A stretch of DNA of 38,678 nucleotides. It comes from a virus. The number at the start of each line of letters is the position of its first letter. Position 1 is the first letter of the stretch. This document shows positions 2,941 to 16,833 of this stretch, in pieces. The DNA is taken from positions 1 to 38,678 of the IMG/VR virus record IMGVR_UViG_3300032087_005120. The stretch is one strand, 5' to 3'. A program made the translations under genes and the position numbers. The notes beneath the pieces were generated by a model that searched no databases, had not been told where the DNA came from, and saw only the letters and a program-made list of their open reading frames with translations.

Positions 2941-5314
2941 TTAATCTCTCTCTTTGAACAGCAGTTCTTTGATTTTGAATTCGTTGTTGCTGTGCTAGTT
3001 TGGCGGCATCAATAGATTTTTTGTAACTTAATTTTTCTTCTTCTAATTTATGTTGAGCAAGATCGTCAGCTGCATCGACATTAATTTTTTGTTGTTCTAG
3101 TTCCAACTCTTTCATCTTTAAGTCGACTAATGGATCGGGTCCACTACCTAAAGGTAAAGCTTCTTGTTCTTCTGCGACCATGTCATCGGTAATAGCTGCA
3201 ATCTTCACGGCTACTTGATTTTCAATTTGTGCTTGGAACTGTTGTTGTAGTTCTGGTGGAACTTGTCCTCCAAACTTCGCAGCTTCTTGTTGTAAGATTG
3301 GTTCTAGTTCGATCATCACTTCTTTTCTTGCTTGTGCAGAAACGTGTTCAATCACGTGTGCTTGAAGTACAGTTAAAACTTGTGGATTGTTTCTCACCAA
3401 ATACGAACTCATAAAGGCACGGTGTGCTTCCATGTGAGCGATATGATCTTGCTCTGGGAACACAGTTAGTTGTCCCATCATTAACGCTTGTGAGTTCTCG
3501 ACACCAGGATCCATCGGTTGTGGTCCTGCGGGTGGTGGTAAAATATTTTCAATTTGTTGGACACCTAACGCCATATACATTCTGCGATACGCTTCGTATA
3601 AATTGTGAATCTCTGGATTGCTCTGTGCTAATTGTAATTGTGTTTGTGCCAACATAATTCTCTGTGACATCGAGAAAATGTTTGGATCAGATACAGGTAA
3701 GACATCGACTCTTTCATCAAAGTCCGTTGTCTTGACGGCACGATTACCACCAGAAACTTCATACGGATATTCCCCTGGCAGAGCAGTAGCAAATAATTTT
3801 GCGAGTAATTGAAATTCTTCCTTTTGTGCGTAGTGGCATCTTTTGTGAATACCACTCATGACTTTGGAGCCTTGTTCTAATAATGCCATGGTGGTACCGA
3901 CAGGGTTCGCTTGCGAACCATCTCCTACCTTCATATCAGCAATAGCTGCAAATCTTCTTCCTGCATCCACCACATAACCGAGTAACTGAAATAATGTTCC
4001 ATCGGGTCCTTTGTAAGGTAGTGGCATTAATGCATTTCGTAAATCTCCTCCAGGTGCATCGACATCTCTAAACTCACCTGGTGTTAGAGGCTCTTCATCA
4101 TCTCTGACACGAAGTCCTCTAGATTTAAAACCAGCAGGTAAGTTGGATAATGTACCTGCATCTAACAATGCTCGTAGTGCGGCTGTGGCTGTGCGAGTCA
4201 AACCGCCAAGCATGTGTACTAAACCAAAACCATAAAATCCGAGACCAGGTAAAAACTTGTAGTGGACAAAATATTTTTGTCTCATAAACATTGGATCGCT
4301 CGGTAAATAGTTTCGATAGATTGATAAAATTTTTCCTGTGCCTTGTTCCAGTGTCACAACGTAAGGCAGTTTTAGTCCTGTGGGCTCACCATTCGCTCCG
4401 AGGTTTTCATACCCTTCAAGATCTAAATCAACGTGCATTTCCAGTAACTGATACTGTCCTGCATATTCCGATTTTTGAACGCCTTCTAACTCGTCGTACT
4501 TTTCTTGAATATCCGAATACGAAGAATACAATTCGTCGTTCTCATCAATTTCAATATCTCGGTAAAAACCAGAAATCATTTGTCGCTTTAAATCGTTCGG
4601 AGAAATTTTTATAACGTGAGTAATTCTTTCGGCATCTTCTAATTCCGATGCTCCGTAGTTCACCACCAAGTCTTCACTCGGAATAAACTTCGAACACGGT
4701 CTTCCCATGTTGCCATCAAAATAAACTTTTTTAAATGCACTCCCTGCTAACGGTAAATGAAAAAGTAATTGATCCATTTCGGGATCGTACTCTTTCATCT
4801 TGTACATGATTTGATAGTTCATAAAATCTTTCACTCGCTCTGCCTGTTGTTCCACCTCAGGAGTTGCTTCTCCTAAGATGGTTGTCTTCACAGGTCCGCC
4901 CGCAGGCAAGAGCTCTTTATAAGCTCCTGCTTGAAACTGCGTGACGGCTTCAGCGAGTAGTGGATGAGAAACTGATGCAGCACCTCTGAAAGGTTCACTG
5001 ACTTCTTGATATTTGAATCCTAATAAATCTAATCCTTTGATGTAACTTTGTTCCCAATCTTTTCGACTGGTCTGGTCGACCGAGAACTGAGAGCGTAGCT
5101 CGTTTGAAATTTTCGCTAAGGATTCTTCGGGAATGACTTCGGCTAAGTTGTCGGCGAATCCATCACCGGTGTCCGTGGGCACGGGACCAAGGCTCACGGG
5201 CTCATCGCCCTCTACCTCAATCTCTAGCGGTGTATCTTCGCTAACTGTTTCTGTAACTATTTCTTCTTCCACACCTTGAGGTGCTTCGTTTAACGTTTTA
5301 TCAATTTCAGCCAT
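2921..5314 (-). CDS. Portal protein (head-to-tail connector)
   Basis: 797 residues, the large portal size seen in podovirus-like phages. After a very acidic N-terminus come an [24 protein letters not shown]-like opening ([19 protein letters not shown]), the [16 protein letters not shown] and GPVKTTILG segments, [13 protein letters not shown], and a glutamine-rich C-terminal helix region ([23 protein letters not shown]). Portals form a dodecameric ring at one capsid vertex, through which the terminase pumps DNA and to which the tail attaches. It sits 13 bases downstream of the large terminase gene, the normal pairing. The C-terminal ~100 residues are a charged, Gln/Ala-rich helix resembling the portal barrel, which reaches into the capsid. 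Confidence 0.85.
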
Positions 5315-5327
5315 ACGTATTTATACC

Positions 5328-6809
5328 CTAAGAACCATAAAATGCAATCTTACGTCGAGGACGTTCTTCTATCTCCTCGTCGTAATCGTGAACCAATGCA
5401 CCGAACTGTCGATATCGCATCAACGCTTGTGTCATCGAATCCACATAGTCATCGTTTCTACCATAAGGGAAAGCGGCACATTCTTCAATAACTTCTTCTG
5501 CCCACTTAAACGGTGGATACCAAATCATTCCTGCTTCAAATAACGGTGCTACGGAGTTGACTCTCACTAATTTGTCGTTTCCTCTGCTCGGTGTGAAGTT
5601 GATCACGGGAATTCCCATGGCTTGCAGTTCGTGTGTGAGGGGCATACCCGTTGCTTTCGCTTCAATAATAATTTGTTCGGGCTGCCAATACTGGTTTTTC
5701 TCTAAAGCGATTCTTTTTAGCTCGGGAAAGTCCCACCGCCCACGGTCCGCTTCCATTAACAGCAAATTTTGCTTACCTGTCATCTCATTATAGAAAACTC
5801 CCCAGGTTGTAATCGCAGAATAGTCCGCTGTTGTCTTGGATGAGAACGCAGTATCGTAACTTTGAATGATATATTGCAACGGTGGCTGATCTTTGTCCCA
5901 TAATTGCCACCATTCACGCTTAATTATGGAAGTTTCTTCGGATGTGGGCTGTTGTTGCCACTGTGCATTCCATTTAGCCACGGGCAGTGAGGCTTTCACC
6001 GCTTCTAATTGATCTTTTTTCCAGAATTCTGGCCATTGAGGGGTGCCGTCGTCCATGAGCGCAGGGAAATCGACAATCTCCCACTTGTCTGCGAGCGGAT
6101 CTTTGGCTTGAGCCTCGATCAAACGCTCTGTTAAGTCGTCTTCTGACCAACGAGTCATGACTACAACGATACTTCCCCCAGGTTGAAGACGCTGACGAGG
6201 ACCTGAAGTGTACCATTCCCATGCATTCTCCATCGCAGTCTTACTTAAAGCGTCTTGTTCGGAGTGTGGATCGTCGATAATGAGCAAATCTGCACCACGA
6301 CCGGTTATAGATCCACCGACACCTGCTGCAAAATACTCCCCTCCGTGGTTCGTTTCCCATCTTCCAGCAGCTTGAGAGTCGGCTCGCAGCTCTGTGTCGG
6401 GGAATATGGACTTGAATTCGTTCTCGTTCATCAAATTTCTGACCTTACGACCAAAACGATAGGCTAGCTCGGCTGTATGGGTGGTTTGGATAATCTTTAA
6501 TTTAGGGTTATTGCCCATCATCCAGGCGGGAAAGAGATAACTGGCAAATTCTGACTTAGTATGTCGGGGTGGCATATTCACAATCAATCTAGAAATTTTT
6601 CCATCCCTGATGGCTTCTAATTTTTTAGAAATGATTTTATGGTGCCTCCCCTCTATGAAGTCGGGCCAAATGTTTTTTACAAAATTTCCAAAGGAGTCCC
6701 TAGAGTTCCTTGCAGATTCAAGTTGTACTTTCTTTAGCTCAAGCTTCTTGAGAAACAAAAGTCTCTCTTCTTGAGACATAGAAGACAAATCTGGTAGTAA
6801 ATCGCTCAT
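5328..6809 (-). CDS. terL: Terminase large subunit (packaging ATPase/nuclease)
   Basis: 493 residues. A deviant Walker A is visible at residues 79-87 (MPPRHTKSE), Walker B at about 173-183 (LLIIDDPHSE), and the coupling motif as VVVMTRWSEDDL. The nuclease half shows a first acidic residue in QSYDTAFSSKTTADYSAI, a second in IIIEAKATGMPL and a third in NDDYVDSMTQAL. The ATPase translocates DNA into the prohead through the portal and the RNase H-fold nuclease cuts the concatemer. It reads into the portal gene after 13 bases. The small subunit is unusually far away (11296-11901), separated by the AT-rich amidoligase cassette and nuclease genes. The surrounding DNA is clearly richer in G+C than that cassette. 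Confidence 0.95.
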   Translation of the reverse strand: MSDLLPDLSSMSQEERLLFLKKLELKKVQLESARNSRDSFGNFVKNIWPDFIEGRHHKIISKKLEAIRDGKISRLIVNMPPRHTKSEFASYLFPAWMMGNNPKLKIIQTTHTAELAYRFGRKVRNLMNENEFKSIFPDTELRADSQAAGRWETNHGGEYFAAGVGGSITGRGADLLIIDDPHSEQDALSKTAMENAWEWYTSGPRQRLQPGGSIVVVMTRWSEDDLTERLIEAQAKDPLADKWEIVDFPALMDDGTPQWPEFWKKDQLEAVKASLPVAKWNAQWQQQPTSEETSIIKREWWQLWDKDQPPLQYIIQSYDTAFSSKTTADYSAITTWGVFYNEMTGKQNLLLMEADRGRWDFPELKRIALEKNQYWQPEQIIIEAKATGMPLTHELQAMGIPVINFTPSRGNDKLVRVNSVAPLFEAGMIWYPPFKWAEEVIEECAAFPYGRNDDYVDSMTQALMRYRQFGALVHDYDEEIEERPRRKIAFYGS

Positions 6810-7090
6810 GTTTTCTGTGTATATTTATATACTAGCACTAACTATATACTACTTCTAATTTTAGGGGGTACCCCTCTTTTTTCAATAGTAATGTATTACT
6901 TCGTAATTCCTTAGTATCTCTTAACCAAAAAAAATTTCATTCTTCAATTTTTTTTGGTTAGGCACGCAAAAAAAAATTTTCATGCACAGGAGCAAAAAGT
7001 AATAATTTATTACGGAGCTGCGATTTGTGGTAATTTTTGGGGGGTGGGTGTTCCTGCACCAAATGCACAGGAACAGGAACACCGAATTAA
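6810..7090. repeat. Intergenic stretch with AT palindromes and a 10-bp inverted repeat
   Basis: No gene is seen in these 281 bases. They hold two members of the dispersed AT palindrome: GTAATGTATTAC at 6888-6899 and GTAATAATTTATTAC at 6999-7013, the latter with perfect 7-base arms. A perfect inverted repeat GGTGTTCCTG/CAGGAACACC lies at 7047-7056 and 7074-7083, and an alternative inner pairing GTTCCTG/CAGGAAC (7050-7056 with 7068-7074) is possible. It lies just past the stop of the amidotransferase gene but no T-run follows on either strand, so it is not a standard terminator. A poly-A/T tract lies around 6925-6980. This is the left border of the amidoligase cassette. Confidence 0.7.
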
Positions 7091-7873
7091 TTATCCTACT
7101 AATTTTTTACGATAGTTTTTAATTGTTTCTATTAATGGATAAGTATCCTCATTATAGACGCAGTGATCTATAAACATTTCAATTTCACTATCTGACATTT
7201 TTTTGAGTTCTATATCAGTAGGGGTTTCAATGAAATCATAATCAAAGCTATTACTATCATAGAGCGATAAACTTTTATTAGGATATAAATAACTAAAAGC
7301 AGTTTTTCTTGTATCCCAATAATCATTTGAAAACCAATTAGCGCCTTTATAGTTTCCTCTTTTCTCATTGATGATAATAAATTTTCTTGATTTGTTATCT
7401 AAGAAAATCATTTTATCTGATCCAATATGTTCAGCTAATTCTATTTGATAATTATTATTTAGAATTACATTTGGATTGTTCTTAAACAATGGTTTTAAAT
7501 TATGTTCATTGAAATGCCATGTATCCGAACAATTTTTATGAACTAATGGAATTGGCAATCTTGCGCCATTGTGCATCATACCAATAGTTCTATTATCTTG
7601 ATTGTAAGATATAAAAGGGTGGCAATTCTTTTTATTGATCTTTCCCTCAGTTTTATATCTAAAGTGCATAGCTATTGTATCAGTATTTTTTTTATGATCA
7701 TTGAAGAAAGTTTTCACTTCATTAAAATCATTTGGTAAAAACTTATCTGAAACAAAGTTATTTTTTTTGTTTAAATACATTACCCCAAAGCCATCAGAAT
7801 TTCTGTTGTATGCAGTTTCCATGTCATCAATGGATAATGATTTAATATCGTTCGCTAAAATAATTAAACACAT
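7091..7873 (-). CDS. Class II glutamine amidotransferase-like (Ntn hydrolase)
   Basis: 260 residues. It begins Met-Cys-Leu-Ile, so removal of Met exposes an N-terminal Cys, the nucleophile of class II glutamine amidotransferases. Family-like segments follow: NRNSDGFGVMY (about 24-34), AMHFRYKTEGKIN (about 68-80), and GMMHNGARL (near 103). These enzymes release ammonia from glutamine, or hydrolyse related gamma-glutamyl amides. The start lies 2 bases after the amidoligase stop, so the pair is an operon. In the amidoligase literature (Iyer, Aravind and colleagues, recalled) such a pairing suggests synthesis or trimming of an amide-linked product. The gene is very AT-rich compared with the terminase next door, suggesting transfer. 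No partner synthetase domain is fused. Confidence 0.75.
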   Translation of the reverse strand: MCLIILANDIKSLSIDDMETAYNRNSDGFGVMYLNKKNNFVSDKFLPNDFNEVKTFFNDHKKNTDTIAMHFRYKTEGKINKKNCHPFISYNQDNRTIGMMHNGARLPIPLVHKNCSDTWHFNEHNLKPLFKNNPNVILNNNYQIELAEHIGSDKMIFLDNKSRKFIIINEKRGNYKGANWFSNDYWDTRKTAFSYLYPNKSLSLYDSNSFDYDFIETPTDIELKKMSDSEIEMFIDHCVYNEDTYPLIETIKNYRKKLVG

Positions 7874-7875
7874 TT

Positions 7876-9318
7876 TTAATTCTCACTTTCTAATTCTTGA
7901 TTAATTAATTCTGAATTATTTATTCTGAAATCGTGAACTATGTTCTTGAAATCATTGTAAATAAATTTCCATTCTTCAATATATTTTAAATGTTCGAAGT
8001 GTTGTTTATCATCTAAAAATATTAAAAGATTAGCATAATCCTTGTGAACATTTTTTAACAACCAATCAAAATAATTATGGTGATGTAAATCATCAGCATT
8101 ATTTTTATGATTTGATCTAATCCATAAATTCACAGTGTGAACAAATTCTAAATATCTAAAAAAAGAAATTTGTTTTATGTTCGATCTAAATATTCTCACT
8201 TCGATTGTATCTTTATTATCAAAGTTAATAACAGAATATTTTTCACCATGAGTTCTAATTGGTGAATGAAAATCAACCATTGGTTTAAATCTACAATATT
8301 GATTTTCATCACGACCAGAAATTTCAGTAATCAAATCTCTGTTTTGTGGATTGTTATAAAAACAATTTAAACGTTTCATTTGATTATCTGTAAAAGCTTT
8401 TCTTGAAAAGTGAATATGAATACCACAATTATAACCATGATAAGCTTTAACATATTGATTAGGATTAAGATTAAAAAACTTATTCCAAAATGTTTTCTTG
8501 TGATAATGAAACGTTGCATTTGTTGATACTAATTCAAATCCATGATCTTGATGTAAACTACCGTCATGTTTACAAAGAATTGAGTTCATAGTATCACGGA
8601 ATTTTTCAACAATGTCATATCTTGAAATAACTTCATGTCTTGTATGAAGTTCAACCTCAATGCCATAAAATAAAACACTATCGATTAATACAATTGCATT
8701 TTGTATTCCCACTTCAGCGACTGCCTTGCCTAAAAATTCAAGAATAATTTTTGCGTTGTATGCGTCTAAATAACTTGAATTATCTTCTTCATTCGCTTCA
8801 CAGTGATAATCATCATGGTGCGTGTCATCATGGTAATCACAATACCAACCTGTACTACTTAAACAATCATGGCAAAGATAATCATTATCACTTTCATAAT
8901 AAGTGCGTCTTTCATCAGTATGAAAAACGTTTTCACAATCTTCACAAGTGAAATAATCATTTTCATAAGCTTCTTGTGAAATTGTTTTATTATCATTGGT
9001 AGTTAAAAAATAATCAGCAACATAAAACTGATTTTCTTCATAACATACAAAGAGATTAATATTAGAATTATCTAATAATCCCTCAATTCTATTATTAAGA
9101 ATATCAGCAATTGCGTTTATTCTTTTTTTAATAATAGTTCTTGTATTATGGATTGAGTAATCAAAAAAACCATTTTGAAATTTAATGTTTAATCGATCCT
9201 CAATTTTTCTTTGATAGCCCCTAAGGATATTTTCCATTAGTTCGCATTTTGTGAAATCCTCAGTATGTTCATCTAAATAAACTTTTGTGAGTCTTTCTAT
9301 TACATTTCTAATATTCAT
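7876..9318 (-). CDS. Amidoligase (GS-fold COOH-NH2 ligase) with N-terminal Cys-rich domain
   Basis: 480 residues. Residues 125-175 form a metal-binding-like region with CxxC pairs (C125/C128, C149/C152) plus C160 and several His. The C-terminal half shows amidoligase hallmarks in order: GIEVE at 219-223, DGS at 252-254, GFELVST at 260-266, CGIHIHFS at 298-305, a GRDENQYCRFK segment, and a late TIEVRIFRSN. This glutamine-synthetase-like family is predicted to form amide bonds between a carboxylate and an amine using ATP, making peptide-like metabolites or modifying proteins; the substrate here is unknown. It is co-transcribed with the amidotransferase gene downstream and diverges from a 76-residue acidic protein gene. 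A purine-rich ribosome site (AAAGGA) precedes the ATG. About 28% G+C in sampled rows, well below the portal/terminase region. Confidence 0.8.
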   Translation of the reverse strand: MNIRNVIERLTKVYLDEHTEDFTKCELMENILRGYQRKIEDRLNIKFQNGFFDYSIHNTRTIIKKRINAIADILNNRIEGLLDNSNINLFVCYEENQFYVADYFLTTNDNKTISQEAYENDYFTCEDCENVFHTDERRTYYESDNDYLCHDCLSSTGWYCDYHDDTHHDDYHCEANEEDNSSYLDAYNAKIILEFLGKAVAEVGIQNAIVLIDSVLFYGIEVELHTRHEVISRYDIVEKFRDTMNSILCKHDGSLHQDHGFELVSTNATFHYHKKTFWNKFFNLNPNQYVKAYHGYNCGIHIHFSRKAFTDNQMKRLNCFYNNPQNRDLITEISGRDENQYCRFKPMVDFHSPIRTHGEKYSVINFDNKDTIEVRIFRSNIKQISFFRYLEFVHTVNLWIRSNHKNNADDLHHHNYFDWLLKNVHKDYANLLIFLDDKQHFEHLKYIEEWKFIYNDFKNIVHDFRINNSELINQELESEN

Positions 9319-9416: not shown

Positions 9417-9647
9417 ATGAAATATTACTTAGTTAGTGAAACAAATGTCGAAAGACAAGATTTATATACTTTACATAATCATACTGAACATTTTTTATTA
9501 AAAGTAGAAAATGAAATTCAATATTTTGATTTTGATGATGATGATTATAGTAATCATTATAATAAACATGAATTAACTGAACTAAATGAAAATCAGTTTA
9601 ATTGTTTAAAAGGAACTTTAAAAATTCGGGAAAAATTATATCCGTAA
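9417..9647 (+). CDS. Acidic small protein of unknown function (76 aa)
   Basis: 76 residues, rich in Asp, Glu, Asn, His and Tyr, with a run of aspartates (YFDFDDDDYSNHYNKHEL). A GAGG ribosome site lies 8 bases before the ATG. It diverges from the amidoligase operon and shares its AT-rich composition, so it probably belongs to the same acquired cassette. Its stop codon is the TAA inside the AT palindrome at 9644. I recognise no family. Because it is small, acidic and encoded beside a ligase that joins carboxylates to amines, it could be a substrate or tag, but that is speculation. Confidence 0.65.
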   Translation: MKYYLVSETNVERQDLYTLHNHTEHFLLKVENEIQYFDFDDDDYSNHYNKHELTELNENQFNCLKGTLKIREKLYP

Positions 9648-10553
9648 TAATTTATGACTCAAAAAAATTTCGGGGCGTCAGGGCAAAGTAATAAAATATT
9701 ACTAAAATGCTCATGCGCCCCCAGGTGTTCAGATTTTAAAAGTAATAAAATATTACAAATCACACGCACAAGCTCACGCAGCGGGAGCAGCTCTCCGTGG
9801 GCCGAGAAAAATTCACAAGCACAGGCTCAAGCACAGGCACAGGACGCAGGCGCACGCACAAGCACACCTGGCACCAGGTCAGCTCAAAAGTAATAAAATA
9901 TTACTCCACAGCAGAAGCTGCTGGAGCCTGGGATGGTAGTTCAAAAAGTAATAATTTATGACGAATCACGGCTCACACCGGCAGCCCAGATCCTGGGTAA
10001 AAAGTAATAAAATATTACTGACAAGCACAAGCGGCCCATCCAGCTGCTGTGGTTGGGGTAATAATTTATGACCATTTTTTATTTGTAGCTCCAGGTCTTT
10101 TTTGATAGATTATGGGAGAATATATAGAAAGGATTTGTTATGACTATAACAAAGAAACACTTAAACGAACTAGCTGACATAGTTTATGAAGCTAGAAAAT
10201 TATGCGACGGGAACAACGACGCTTTGGCTCACTTTGTGGATTTAAAAATACAAATGTTTGCCAAGCGACACGCACCCAACTTCGATCACATTAAATGGAA
10301 CGAATACATGCACAAGCTGAAGAAGGCAGAGGACAGACCCGAACCTAATAAGCAGTATAGACTGGTCGGGAAGTCTGGAGAATCTAGCATAGCCCGGGGC
10401 AACACCTGGGCAGAATCAGAAATAAAGTAATAATTTATGACTGACTCAAGGCTCACGACCACGGGTCAAGAGATTGCCCGACTCAGAAAAAAAATGCTCC
10501 GTAGTGATTCAGCTGCGGAGCAAGCTGCCATCTGGAAAGTAATAAAATATTAC
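9644..10553. repeat. Cluster of nine ~15-bp AT palindromes in G+C-rich spacers
   Basis: Two forms alternate. Form A, GTAATAAAATATTAC, is at 9688, 9742, 9890, 10004 and 10539. Form B, GTAATAATTTATGAC, is at 9644, 9948, 10058 and 10427. Four copies between 9890 and 10072 are spaced 54-58 bases. The spacers are strikingly richer in G+C, full of CACAAGCACA- and CAGGCTCAAGC-like words, and contain hairpins such as ACCTGG-CA-CCAGGT (9866-9879) and CAGCAG-AAG-CTGCTG (9909-9923). Form B contains both TAATAA and ATG. It ends the genes at 9647 and 10430 and supplies the ATG of the reading frames at 9654 and 10437. Between 9648 and 10139 I see no secure gene. A low-complexity frame at 9654-9893 (79 codons, Gln/Ala-rich) and a 38-codon frame from 9958 are probably by-products. 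Confidence 0.8.
10140..10430 (+). CDS. Hypothetical protein (96 aa)
   Basis: 96 residues with an AAAGGA ribosome site 7 bases before the ATG. The N-terminal two thirds look helical (KKHLNELADIVYEARKLCDG, ALAHFVDLKIQMFAKRH). The C-terminal segment is polar (PEPNKQYRLVGKSGESSIAR). The stop codon is supplied by the form-B AT palindrome at 10427. I recognise no family. It lies in the same direction as the following 53-residue gene and between palindrome copies, so the two may be co-transcribed from AT-rich sequence just upstream (10073-10130). Confidence 0.65.
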   Translation: MTITKKHLNELADIVYEARKLCDGNNDALAHFVDLKIQMFAKRHAPNFDHIKWNEYMHKLKKAEDRPEPNKQYRLVGKSGESSIARGNTWAESEIK

Positions 10554-10598
10554 CTGGAGCTGGAGTCCCAGGGCAAATTTTTTCTCCCAAAATTCTAA
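10437..10598 (+). CDS. Small helical protein starting inside the AT palindrome (53 aa)
   Basis: 53 residues starting at the ATG within the form-B palindrome (10427-10441), six bases after the TAA of the preceding gene. The protein looks genuine: a charged amphipathic helix (GQEIARLRKKMLRSDSAAEQ) followed by AAIWKVIKYYLELESQGKFF. The form-A palindrome at 10539 lies inside the gene and encodes VIKYY in frame. Its TAA overlaps the stop codon of the convergent nuclease gene (CTAA). A perfect hairpin TGCTCCG/CGGAGCA lies within the coding sequence. No Shine-Dalgarno precedes it, so translation would depend on coupling to the upstream stop. Function unknown. Confidence 0.5.
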   Translation: MTDSRLTTTGQEIARLRKKMLRSDSAAEQAAIWKVIKYYLELESQGKFFLPKF

Positions 10599-11170
10599 GG
10601 AACATGCACAAGCACACGCCCGATAGCAGGCTCAAGCACATGCGTCCATGGTTGGTCGACCGTGAACAAGGGTTCCACATCTTTGTAGTTGGTCACAAGC
10701 TCACGCACCACGGCCCCTGGCCAAAAGAAAATCTTTCTCTCTTCCACCCCCTTGGCCATAATAAAATTATCTTGGCATAGAGAATAACGCTTTAAATTCC
10801 ATGAAATTTGGAAAGGTGAGAGATCTAGTTTGTTTCCTTTTGTTAGCTTCAATTCACACCAAAAAGAAATATTCTTCTTTAAAGATTTATCTACATAAAC
10901 TCCCAGTAAATCGGGTATTCCTGGGGTTCCGTAAGTTTCAATTCTTGTCCAATAAATGTTCGGAGTTATCGACCTAACATTCTTCCAAAAAGTTGATTCC
11001 CTTCCTCGCTTTACGGAAGGGGTTGCCGTTTTCTTTTTTCTGTCTTTTGGTGATTGTTTCTCTTTTTTCAACAATGCGAATCTCTTCTCCTTCGACAAGA
11101 CAAAGTCGGACTCCAAGTTCTTTTTGAGTAGGTTTGAGTTTGTTTCCCGACCCACCAACCGACTTGCCAT
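10595..11170 (-). CDS. VRR-NUC-like PD-(D/E)XK nuclease, start uncertain
   Basis: The recognisable domain begins near residue 54 of the longest ATG frame: RGRESTFWKNVRSI, then YGTPGIPDLLGVY, FWCELKLTKGNKLDLSPFQISW. The GIPD...ELK combination is the metal-binding and catalytic core of PD-(D/E)XK/VRR-type nucleases, which in phages process DNA during recombination or packaging. The ATG at 11170 produces a 197-base overlap with the upstream nuclease gene; no ATG, GTG or TTG lies between 11010 and the domain, so the long overlap, a rare start or a frameshift must be invoked. The C-terminus (PWTHVLEPAIGRVLVHVP) runs into the CACAAGC-type low-complexity DNA and may have been appended by that repeat. 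The neighbours are the small terminase and a second nuclease. Confidence 0.7.
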   Translation of the reverse strand: MASRLVGRETNSNLLKKNLESDFVLSKEKRFALLKKEKQSPKDRKKKTATPSVKRGRESTFWKNVRSITPNIYWTRIETYGTPGIPDLLGVYVDKSLKKNISFWCELKLTKGNKLDLSPFQISWNLKRYSLCQDNFIMAKGVEERKIFFWPGAVVRELVTNYKDVEPLFTVDQPWTHVLEPAIGRVLVHVP

Positions 11171-11357
11171 TTACAACTCTACTTCCTTGAGATGTCTTAA
11201 TATCAAAGAAGTGTGCTCTACCGTTCTTTGGATTAACAACAATGATATCAATTGGACCTTGTTCGCAACAGTTTTTAAAGACGTAATAACCTTCTTCAAG
11301 AAATTTGTTGATCGCTTTGTTCTCGCTGATCGTTGCCTTGTATTGTCTCGGATTCAT
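10974..11357 (-). CDS. PD-(D/E)XK nuclease, Holliday-junction-resolvase-like
   Basis: 127 residues from the ATG at 11357, chosen because GGAGG lies 5 bases upstream; a start ten codons earlier has no such site. The core reads KFLEEGYYVFKNCCEQGPID, IIVVNPKNGRAHFFDIKTS, that is PID followed by D-x-K, as in small resolvase-like PD-(D/E)XK enzymes that recognise branched DNA. The C-terminus is basic. It overlaps the terminase small subunit gene upstream by 62 bases and is overlapped by the second nuclease gene downstream. Resolving branches before packaging is a plausible role given this context. Confidence 0.7.
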   Translation of the reverse strand: MNPRQYKATISENKAINKFLEEGYYVFKNCCEQGPIDIIVVNPKNGRAHFFDIKTSQGSRVVNGKSVGGSGNKLKPTQKELGVRLCLVEGEEIRIVEKRETITKRQKKENGNPFRKARKGINFLEEC

Positions 11358-11901
11358 TATCCTCCAAATCCGTAGGGGTCTGATCAATGATAGAATGTTT
11401 TCTTAAGTCTTGCAACATTTGATCAACTTCTTCGAGAGTCAAGTTATCAATTCCTTTCCCTGTTTGTTTTTCTTTTTTCTCATAATATCCAGCTGCTTTA
11501 CCTCTACTAATCTCAGCAGCTAAAGCTGTTTTGAGATCTGGTTTCATATCAAATTCATTGATATCTTTTGAGGTAGGATTCTCAGCACGAAGACCAAGTT
11601 CGTGTAATCTTCTCATATGTGTAGCCGGTGAAATTTTATATTTATTCCAAAGATCTTCCTGTAAGGCTCGAATGTAAGCATGAACTTTGGGGAACTCTTT
11701 GGCACTCTGTAATTTAGATGCTGTAATTCTAGCAGAGTTAGGATTATATCCTGCCATAACAGCACATTCAGTTGCAGTCTTTCGATTCTCTTGAGCAACT
11801 AAGTTTTCAGCAAAAGCTATTTGCTTTGGTGTCAGTTCATCTCTCATCTCGGTCAACTCTTTAGTCAACACGATATCATCCCCTGGTTTTCTAAACTTCA
11901 T
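11296..11901 (-). CDS. terS: Terminase small subunit
   Basis: 201 residues. The N-terminal part shows the DNA-binding helix-turn-helix of phage small terminases: ELTPKQIAFAENLVAQENRK, then ATECAVMAGYNPNSARITAS. The rest is helical (ALQEDLWNKYKISPATHMRR) with an acidic, Gln-rich C-terminus (DLEDNESETIQGNDQREQSD). It binds the packaging start site and delivers DNA to TerL. It is separated from terL by about 4.5 kb containing the amidoligase cassette and two nuclease genes. The stop lies within the resolvase-like gene's start region. Its own upstream region (11902-12068) carries the GAAGAATA repeats. Confidence 0.8.
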   Translation of the reverse strand: MKFRKPGDDIVLTKELTEMRDELTPKQIAFAENLVAQENRKTATECAVMAGYNPNSARITASKLQSAKEFPKVHAYIRALQEDLWNKYKISPATHMRRLHELGLRAENPTSKDINEFDMKPDLKTALAAEISRGKAAGYYEKKEKQTGKGIDNLTLEEVDQMLQDLRKHSIIDQTPTDLEDNESETIQGNDQREQSDQQIS

Positions 11902-12260
11902 AATTCCCTTATAAGAAGAAATCTAACAAAATCAACAAAAATATAAATCCAATTCAGATTTGCGAGCCCCCTCAGAAGAATATGTTATTCTTCAGAAGAA
12001 TGACTAGAAGAATGAAATATTTGGCTACTATTAAAGTATATCAATGATAATAGCTTGTCGAAGAATGAAAGAGTGAGATTCGTAGAATTTGAAAATATTT
12101 TTTTTATTTTTGTAGAAATTCCTCTTTATAGAGGTATTCTATTCTTCCGTGGTCCTTGGGCCGTGAGTGTTTATCCTTTCCCACTCACACCGATCCCTCC
12201 TTTATTTGTTAATTAGCCCTTGACCACGGGCAATTAATATCTATATTATCCTATATAGAA
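11902..12260. promoter_or_regulatory. Divergent control region with GAAGAATA repeats and nested palindromes
   Basis: No gene is seen in these 359 bases, which separate the leftward terS operon from the rightward small-gene operon. A perfect inverted repeat GAAGAATA/TATTCTTC lies at 11975-11982 and 11986-11993. Further GAAGAAT copies follow at about 11995, 12007 and 12060, and a TATTCTTC lies at 12040-type orientation at 12140-12147. A small hairpin CCTCT-TTAT-AGAGG spans 12121-12134. A large nested structure follows: CCGTGGTC (12147-12154) pairs with GACCACGG (12222-12229), and inside it GTGAGTG pairs with CACTCAC. The repeats look like operator or iteron sites for a phage DNA-binding protein, possibly a replication or transcription switch; that is inference. 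Confidence 0.6.
12220..12249 (+). promoter_or_regulatory. Sigma70-like promoter for the rightward small-gene operon
   Basis: A -35 box TTGACC at 12220-12225 is followed after 16 bases by TATATT (12242-12247), or after 18 bases by TATTAT (12244-12249). The start of transcription would fall around 12255, only a few bases before the ATG at 12261. The right arm of the CCGTGGTC/GACCACGG palindrome overlaps the -35 box, so a protein bound there would compete with RNA polymerase. Confidence 0.55.
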
Positions 12261-14435: not shown

Positions 14436-14911
14436 ATATCGAAATCCAAGAAACTTCAGCAGCCGTCGCTTGTAAATTAAACGAGCTATGGCATTCAAGA
14501 TTACCTCAACTTCATCCTAGTAATGTATGGAGATCTAAAAATTATATTTGTTTTTTATTTATGATCGACGAAGCAGTAGTCGGTGTCGGTATCTGGTCGT
14601 CACCTGTGGCTCGCATGTTGAGTAATAAAACATTACTAGAGCTGCGTCGGTTAGCTCTGAGCAAACATTGTCCCAAGAATACAGCAACTTATGTTTTATC
14701 AAAAATGATCAAAGCCATTAAAGAAAAGTTCCCTGAGATAGAAAAAGTAATCTCTTATCAAGACACAGCTGTTCATTTAGGAACGATCTACAAAGCTGCT
14801 AATTGGACACAATCAAACGTCAGTACAGGGGGCGAATGGACAAGACAATCCAGGGCAAGGAGCAAAGCACAAACAGCAGTTCCTAAAGTGCGTTGGGAAT
14901 TTTCACTCTAA
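14432..14911 (+). CDS. GNAT-type acetyltransferase-like protein
   Basis: About 159 residues from a GTG at 14432 overlapping the upstream stop (GTGA); an ATG at 14405 would add nine residues. The core shows a strand-loop with FLFMIDEAVVGVGIWSSPVA, then LLELRRLALSKHCPKNTATY, VLSKMIKAIKEKFPEIEKVI and SYQDTAVHLGTIYKAANWTQ. This recurrent phage GNAT-like family is marked by LELRRLxL...N. The acceptor is unknown; phage GNATs may modify host proteins or hypermodify DNA. The sequence encoding SNKTLLE (14622-14636) is one base away from the form-A AT palindrome, read in the same frame as two copies in the cluster at 9688-10018. Confidence 0.7.
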   Translation: MNIEIQETSAAVACKLNELWHSRLPQLHPSNVWRSKNYICFLFMIDEAVVGVGIWSSPVARMLSNKTLLELRRLALSKHCPKNTATYVLSKMIKAIKEKFPEIEKVISYQDTAVHLGTIYKAANWTQSNVSTGGEWTRQSRARSKAQTAVPKVRWEFSL

Positions 14912-15556: not shown

Positions 15557-15754
15557 CAACATATGCGGAGTAATGTCTGTACTGTTGTGCCTAAGTACAA
15601 TTAAACATTAGTAATAAATTATTCTTTGTCAATTATTACAACATTATAGGTGCGACAGTATGTCCTATTTACTTATGGATATTTATGGGTTATTATATAA
15701 CATTAAATTAATCGAAAGATTAATTTTGCTCTTTAACAGAAAGGATAAGAAAGC
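15557..15754. other. Gene-free stretch before the 92-aa gene
   Basis: No coding region is seen. It contains a degenerate AT palindrome GTAATAAATTATTC at 15611-15624 and the plus-strand leader of the next gene (ATTAATCGAAAGATTAAT, an inverted repeat at about 15707-15724). Because it is followed on the minus strand by a strong terminator, it could produce a short minus-strand RNA. Confidence 0.4.
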
Positions 15755-16450: not shown

Positions 16451-16687
16451 AGGATCCTTCTTGAGGATATTATTAATTTGAGTATCAGTGCTCTTGATCA
16501 TGTTCTGAGCAATCATCAACCCAGATGCTTCGCCTAAACCATAAGCGTAATCAAAAACTTCTGCTAACCATTGTTTAATCAAACTTTCTTTTGAAGTGAA
16601 GTTTGGTTCCATTTTGGTTTTGTTTTCAATAGCTGCTTCCGCAATCTTCAGCATCTTTTCTTTCTTCTGCATATGTTGAACTATCAT
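16445..16687 (-). CDS. Hypothetical helical protein (80 aa)
   Basis: 80 residues starting by TAATG overlap with the ribbon-helix-helix gene. Sequence is helical and charged at first (QKKEKMLKIAEAAIENKTKM), then WLAEVFDYAYGLGEASGLMI. The tight coupling with a small DNA-binding protein recalls two-gene regulatory or toxin-antitoxin pairs, but no toxin fold is recognised. Its stop codon lies within the long-stem element that follows. Confidence 0.6.
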   Translation of the reverse strand: MIVQHMQKKEKMLKIAEAAIENKTKMEPNFTSKESLIKQWLAEVFDYAYGLGEASGLMIAQNMIKSTDTQINNILKKDPQ

Positions 16688-16833
16688 TATATTGCCTTTC
16701 TTTTCTCATATTCTTTGTCAACTAAACTAGAAACAATACCAGAGATTTTTCGATCTTTTCCCGCTAATTTCTTTAGCTTTGTGTGTGTTTCTATTCTTAC
16801 GATAATTGACTTATACTTGTTCGTGTCCGTCAT
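16687..16833 (-). CDS. Ribbon-helix-helix-like DNA-binding protein (48 aa)
   Basis: Short gene found by reading the minus strand; AGGAGA lies 5 bases before the ATG at 16833. The product reads MTDTNKYKSIIVRIETHTKL, then KKLAGKDRKISGIVSSLVDK. A short strand (SIIVRIE), a helix (HTKLKKLAGK), a turn and a second helix (ISGIVSSLVDKEYEK) match the Arc/CopG pattern, in which dimers insert a two-stranded ribbon into the DNA major groove. Targets could be the AT palindromes or GAAGAATA repeats elsewhere in the window; that link is speculation. It overlaps the next gene (TAATG). Confidence 0.65.
   Translation of the reverse strand: MTDTNKYKSIIVRIETHTKLKKLAGKDRKISGIVSSLVDKEYEKRKAI

Follow-up and report, generated by a model that had tools for sequence, protein, structure and literature searches.

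What is known about repeated control sites in phage genomes?

Lambda-type operator clusters are made up of several near-palindromic sites, with one half of the site stricter than the other, placed near a promoter, and the locus described here resembles them in having near-palindromic sites, one stricter half and a position close to a promoter; it differs in that there are more sites, at wider spacing, and most of them lie outside the promoter. In L5-type (Cluster A) mycobacteriophages, operators and stoperators are asymmetric and spread throughout the genome, some in a promoter and most not promoter-associated, and a phage repressor bound to them blocks elongation (PMC6550527, PMC9283540). Our repeated sites are likewise short, share one orientation relative to transcription and are mostly promoter-free, but each is a 15-bp near-palindrome and they occupy one locus of about 1 kb. 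Another useful comparison is with the start-associated sequences of Cluster K mycobacteriophages, which are 13-bp asymmetric repeats next to the start codons of many genes (PMC3203893). These too are conserved phage repeats tied to gene boundaries, although the sites here abut stop codons and a promoter, again at one locus. We found no earlier description of the array, which belongs to a group of uncultured marine phages, resembles known phage control regions and consists of copies that are most likely docking sites for a control protein beside a promoter.

SAR11 phages are among the most abundant viruses, and to our knowledge little is known about how their genes are controlled. A 15-bp word fixed relative to a promoter would be a direct handle for finding a regulator in this phage group, and would let control of an amidotransferase/amidoligase-type cassette by that regulator be tested; the array also marks this phage group in metagenomes.

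Where does the array lie?

By the window we mean the whole 38,678-nucleotide stretch analysed, a record of a 38.7-kb virus in which no end repeats were detected. Its large terminase shares 63-64% identity with its counterparts in Pelagibacter phage HTVC027P and phage 023Pt_psg01, so that the virus is related to HTVC023P-type pelagiphages, and this relation is our one ground for inferring a SAR11 host. The genes around the array are as follows.

5328-6809, minus strand: large terminase gene (TerL), left of the cassette and the array
7091-9318, minus strand: AT-rich cassette, between TerL and the array
7091-7873, minus strand: class II glutamine amidotransferase-like gene, in the AT-rich cassette
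7876-9318, minus strand: gene called an amidoligase by the first-pass annotation, in the AT-rich cassette
10140-10430, plus strand: ORF 10140, small gene downstream of the array, with its stop codon in site 8
10437-10598, plus strand: ORF 10437, small conserved gene, whose homologues in an array-less clade have no site
10595-11170: VRR-type gene, right of the array
10974-11357: NERD-like gene, right of the array
11296-11901: small terminase gene (Terminase_2 in Pfam)

The gene at 7876-9318 had no match to an amidoligase model in Pfam, and that at 10595-11170 is one we take to be VRR-type, from a match to a phage helicase-nuclease family. In the window and in its relatives the array is placed between the small and large terminase genes, and in most array-bearing relatives the order to the right is array, ORF 10140, a further site and then the VRR-type gene.

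What do the repeated sites look like?

The first-pass annotation had described nine copies in two forms at 9644-10553, and they are exactly where it placed them, at a density far above chance. Five are form A, GTAATAAAATATTAC (exact at 9688, 9742, 9890, 10004 and 10539), and four are form B, GTAATAATTTATGAC (exact at 9644, 9948, 10058 and 10427); all nine lie on the plus strand, the orientation of ORFs 9417, 10140 and 10437. Allowing up to three mismatches, forms A and B match 25 and 23 times, where shuffles average 3.9 and 2.7 and none reaches the observed number, and with at most one mismatch to the consensus given below there are 11 sites in the window and none in any of 20 simulated sequences.

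9644-9658, plus strand: site 1, form B, stop codon of ORF 9417-9647
9688-9702, plus strand: site 2, form A
9742-9756, plus strand: site 3, form A
9757-9889, plus strand: long G+C-rich spacer with a CARGC tract of 6-bp period
9890-9904, plus strand: site 4, form A
9948-9962, plus strand: site 5, form B, followed by a conserved GAATCA
10004-10018, plus strand: site 6, form A
10058-10072, plus strand: site 7, form B, promoter-proximal, followed by CATTTTTTAT
10427-10441, plus strand: site 8, form B, stop of ORF 10140 and ATG of ORF 10437
10539-10553, plus strand: site 9, form A, read VIKYY in ORF 10437
6999-7013, no strand applicable: perfect palindrome GTAATAATTTATTAC, in the interval from TerL to the amidoligase cassette, also seen in some relatives
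14622-14636, plus strand: one-mismatch copy inside a GNAT-like gene

Successive sites are 44, 54, 148, 58, 56, 54, 369 and 112 bp apart, so that four of the spacings are indeed 54-58 bases (54, 58, 56, 54), as had been claimed. The outlying copies fared unevenly: both the 6999 palindrome and the copy at 14622, one mismatch off, are real, the latter explicable by coding (SNKTLL) and of uncertain role, while that at 15611 is three mismatches from form A and that near 6888 is a partial palindrome only.

Across 203 copies from 41 distinct arrays the consensus is GTAATAAWWTATKAC, in which 12 of the 15 positions are nearly invariant: positions 1, 2, 4-7, 11, 12, 14 and 15 are at least 99% identical, position 3 is A in 96% and position 10 is T in 94%, and two bases each occur at positions 8, 9 and 13. 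The site is an imperfect dyad with 7-bp arms, its left half stricter than its right. The G+C-rich spacers turn over, with identities between loci of mostly 40-60%; closely similar ones cluster at the same position in related phages and are mostly unalike across groups. A CRISPR array was also considered and rejected, given spacers common to relatives by position and no Cas gene among the ORFs examined. A typical array runs from two or three sites through a long spacer that holds the CARGC tract and at least two more sites to the promoter, ORF 10140 and a further site. The commonest spacing is 44 bp (54 short spacings are exactly that), and a second group lies at 54-57; relative L122 has 43 where the window has 44, so reading frames break between relatives and the repeats are not coding units, which disposes of a coding repeat.

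The CARGC (GCTTG/GCTCG) tract is a G+C-rich feature in its own right, seen at 9757-9889 in the window, at 16499-17446 in L163 and at 15366-15470 in L164. Relatives retain it whether or not they have the array, biased to the strand opposite TerL, and in HTVC027P and 023Pt_psg01 the same interval holds a GCTTG-rich tract on the TerL strand; across the wider family the tract between the terminase genes keeps to one strand relative to TerL. We regard it as a candidate for packaging or another core function.

How is the array linked to a predicted promoter?

A putative promoter follows the last copy before ORF 10140.

10083-10111, plus strand: predicted sigma-70-type promoter, TTGTAG (10083-10088), 17 bp, TAGATT (10106-10111)

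After the last array copy most relatives have CATTTTTTT, or a sequence close to it, then a -35-like hexamer, 17 bp and TATATA or similar, and the -35 starts exactly 10 bp after the site in 24 of 39 candidate sequences. This fixed position of the site relative to -35 and -10 holds in most relatives and is weak in the window, where the promoter at that offset has 7 of 12 consensus bases and a better-scoring match sits at another offset; at the same position most relatives have a stronger one. When copies were sorted by whether the T-tract follows the site, leaving the promoter boxes out of the sorting, the promoter-proximal ones had 8.8 of 12 consensus bases near the fixed offset and the other copies 5.7. 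The combination of site, T-tract and TTG occurs in 44 viral contigs, and every one checked belongs to this phage group. Were transcription to start some 7 bp beyond the -10, the centre of the site would lie near -54. The majority of copies have no adjoining promoter.

A sister clade lacks both the array and the amidoligase-type cassette. In four of its members (L185, L195, L197 and L240) one copy, GTAATAAAATATGAC, is retained near TerL, followed by CATTTTT, a tail of the same kind as in the arrays, and in L185 and L195, the two read in detail, the promoter points away from TerL and stands before other genes. Three further array-less contigs that reach TerL (L223, L224 and L225) have no site, and their close relatives keep the gene for a ribbon-helix-helix (RHH)-like protein.

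It is mainly because the association of site and promoter recurs in two clades with different downstream genes that we read the repeats as operators, arrayed for a regulator of phage or host origin that would act on a rightward promoter, with copies that also abut gene ends and act as exchange joints; judged from sequence, we think this account probable on balance. A DNA-binding regulator, probably a dimer and encoded by phage or host, would recognise GTAATAAWWTATKAC, and its occupancy of the promoter-proximal copy, 10 bp upstream of the -35, would control the rightward promoter. Additional copies, found at gene ends and on either side of the CARGC tract, may provide cooperative binding or transcription roadblocks. 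The TAATAA in the left half would double as a stop codon for abutting genes, and the repeated words would be joints at which units are gained, lost or exchanged, as a by-product and not the main function. The weak promoter in the window, the many copies away from any promoter and the three array-less contigs with no site count against this account, and the single orientation and unequal halves could also fit descent by tandem duplication.

The regulator itself may lie within the window.

16687-16833, minus strand: RHH-like protein of 48 residues, ribbon-helix-helix by sequence pattern

This protein is kept in both clades, including contigs where no site was seen, and its YKS.IVR strand is invariant in both. 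It had no profile match, and its monomer model (mean pLDDT 65) is of low confidence and uninformative on fold; for now it is a candidate regulator of the array. Several genes track with the array in the loci compared, namely the amidotransferase, the amidoligase-type gene, the cyclotransferase (GGACT in Pfam) and ORFs 10140, 12467 and 16066. In a small-terminase tree, however, the array-less phages form one clade, a single evolutionary event that is weak proof of any functional link to these partner genes.

Why do genes end in the repeats?

As the first-pass annotation had noticed, form B supplies the stop codon of two genes, ORF 9417-9647 and ORF 10140-10430. Form B does also give an ATG at both 9654 and 10437, as it had further proposed; the one at 10437 starts a recognisable gene, while the frame from 9654 is not kept in relatives (the 43 in place of 44 in L122 breaks it) and is thus probably not a gene. 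Some 25 arrays have, in the site that bounds the end of the ORF 10140 interval, a TAA at positions 2-4 that terminates the preceding gene, and the genes that end there are of several unrelated kinds, besides ORF 10140 with many different C-termini. Form A was said to be read in frame as VIKYY, and so it is at site 9; wherever an array has ORF 10437, that gene contains the site, read as VIKYY, VIKHY or VIKNY. Most array-bearing relatives have a site at about the same distance from the VRR-type gene as site 9, whether coding or not.

The product of ORF 10140 is predicted to be a three-helix protein; its best solved match has a Z of 5.8, which for a small helical fold may reflect a common arrangement, and it has no viral match below E 0.5. 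ORF 10140 is itself mosaic, in that phages further apart have middle segments or C-termini that are nearly the same.

What else might the array be?

Exchange at the sites raises the question of whether the palindromes are primarily a recombination platform, that is, joints for the exchange, inversion or insertion of cassettes with stop codons built in. The window is homologous to L063, L127 and similar phages up to 10333 and again from 10449, and to L154 over 10057-10444; the switch from the L154-like to the L063-like segment falls on site 8. Close relatives differ by entire spacer units, genes of several unrelated kinds terminate in a site, and the amidotransferase/amidoligase-type cassette is inverted relative to TerL in seven relatives (L051, L129, L134, L136, L142, L252 and L255), in several of which it has sites on both sides. 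Among 1797 left ends of local alignments, 415 coincide with the left edge of a site, against a combined both-sides null of about 7%, but right ends are not enriched (95 of 1179, near the null), and a bias of local-alignment starts toward conserved islands in diverged DNA possibly accounts for the left-end excess. No site-specific recombinase was recognised among the window proteins examined, and the fixed promoter geometry would be left unexplained, so that recombination as the main function seems to us unlikely. The earlier suggestion of a modular gene-joining element does gain some support from the unrelated gene ends and the breakpoints enriched at left edges. An extended version would equip each site with a double stop codon as well as a conserved joint; small genes could then be inserted, inverted or swapped and still end cleanly, with the promoter-linked copy driving whatever is inserted; we entertain this cassette-exchange idea as a speculative one of low probability. 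A mobile or selfish palindromic repeat, which had also been proposed, would fit the variable copy number and the copies inside coding genes (ORF 10437 and GNAT), yet the sites are not dispersed through records of up to 47 kb, their order and architecture are conserved and no transposase was recognised, and we give it hardly any credence.

The suggestion of a binding-site array has held up best, with a near-invariant 15-mer in fast-changing spacers, a fixed promoter position and one locus per genome, and of its two versions a regulator fits better than an origin. In a replication origin the copies would be initiator iterons beside a G+C-rich tract, with a promoter able to prime synthesis, and the single locus, the direct repeats at regular spacing (the 44-bp class above), the site pairs flanking a conserved tract and the adjoining promoter would all suit; however, the array-less clade, its replication genes partly covered, keeps related terminase and helicase genes, no initiator gene was recognised nearby and the base skew of the window follows gene direction with no clear origin signal, which leaves an origin a minority view. 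An RNA-level element, A+U-rich and concerned with processing or structure in alternation with hairpins, would account for the single orientation, the strict left half and the good folding of some individual spacers. Yet, taken together, the small hairpins that had been noted in the spacers are weak (a mean folding z of -0.42 over 91 spacers, with no compensatory changes in the set tested), an Rfam search gave no match, and dyad symmetry and promoter geometry point to DNA, making an RNA element quite improbable. The location between the terminase genes invites the idea of a terminase recognition site (pac or cos), but the array is absent from phages whose small and large terminases are 77-81% and 90-93% identical to those of the window, and the CARGC tract, kept in both clades, is the better candidate; we consider this very improbable.

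How widespread is the array?

Three patterns for site pairs, run over 2.9 million viral contigs, found 34, 36 and 57 contigs, and genes of this phage group were present in 56 of the 57 contigs with paired sites. The exception, L256, has an AT-rich site pair without any gene of the group; at 10253-10322 this AT-rich viral contig carries the related words GTAATATTTTATTAC, GTAATGTTTTATTAC and GTAATATATTATTAC close together. Among bacterial and archaeal genomes the scan hit two contigs, one in a Halanaerobiales bin and one in a Bacteroidota bin, which we take as unrelated. No DNA match to the array was found in a collection of phage isolates, and 50-kb stretches of HTVC027P and 023Pt_psg01 have no array. 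There is one array per record. Neither of the outcomes that the first-pass annotation had named as refuting its reading was seen: relatives with the cassette have at least two copies nearby, and the rest of each longer record, up to 47 kb, is almost free of the word. A more distant phage, L068 (TerL 62% identical), has four sites with at most one mismatch in 10.6 kb, at 3951, 7059, 7732 and 7992, one of them just upstream of TerL.

Other short words in the window also merit a look. A cluster of GAAGAAT / ATTCTTC words at 11975-12066, between the small terminase gene and ORF 12261, is possibly a second array, and GAAGAAT occurs in three to six copies in most array-bearing relatives as against none or one in the array-less clade. 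Upstream of TerL, at 6838-6970, lies a block conserved in relatives, with arms CCAAAAAAAATT / AATTTTTTTTGG together with AGAGATACTAAGGAATTACGAAGTAATAC.
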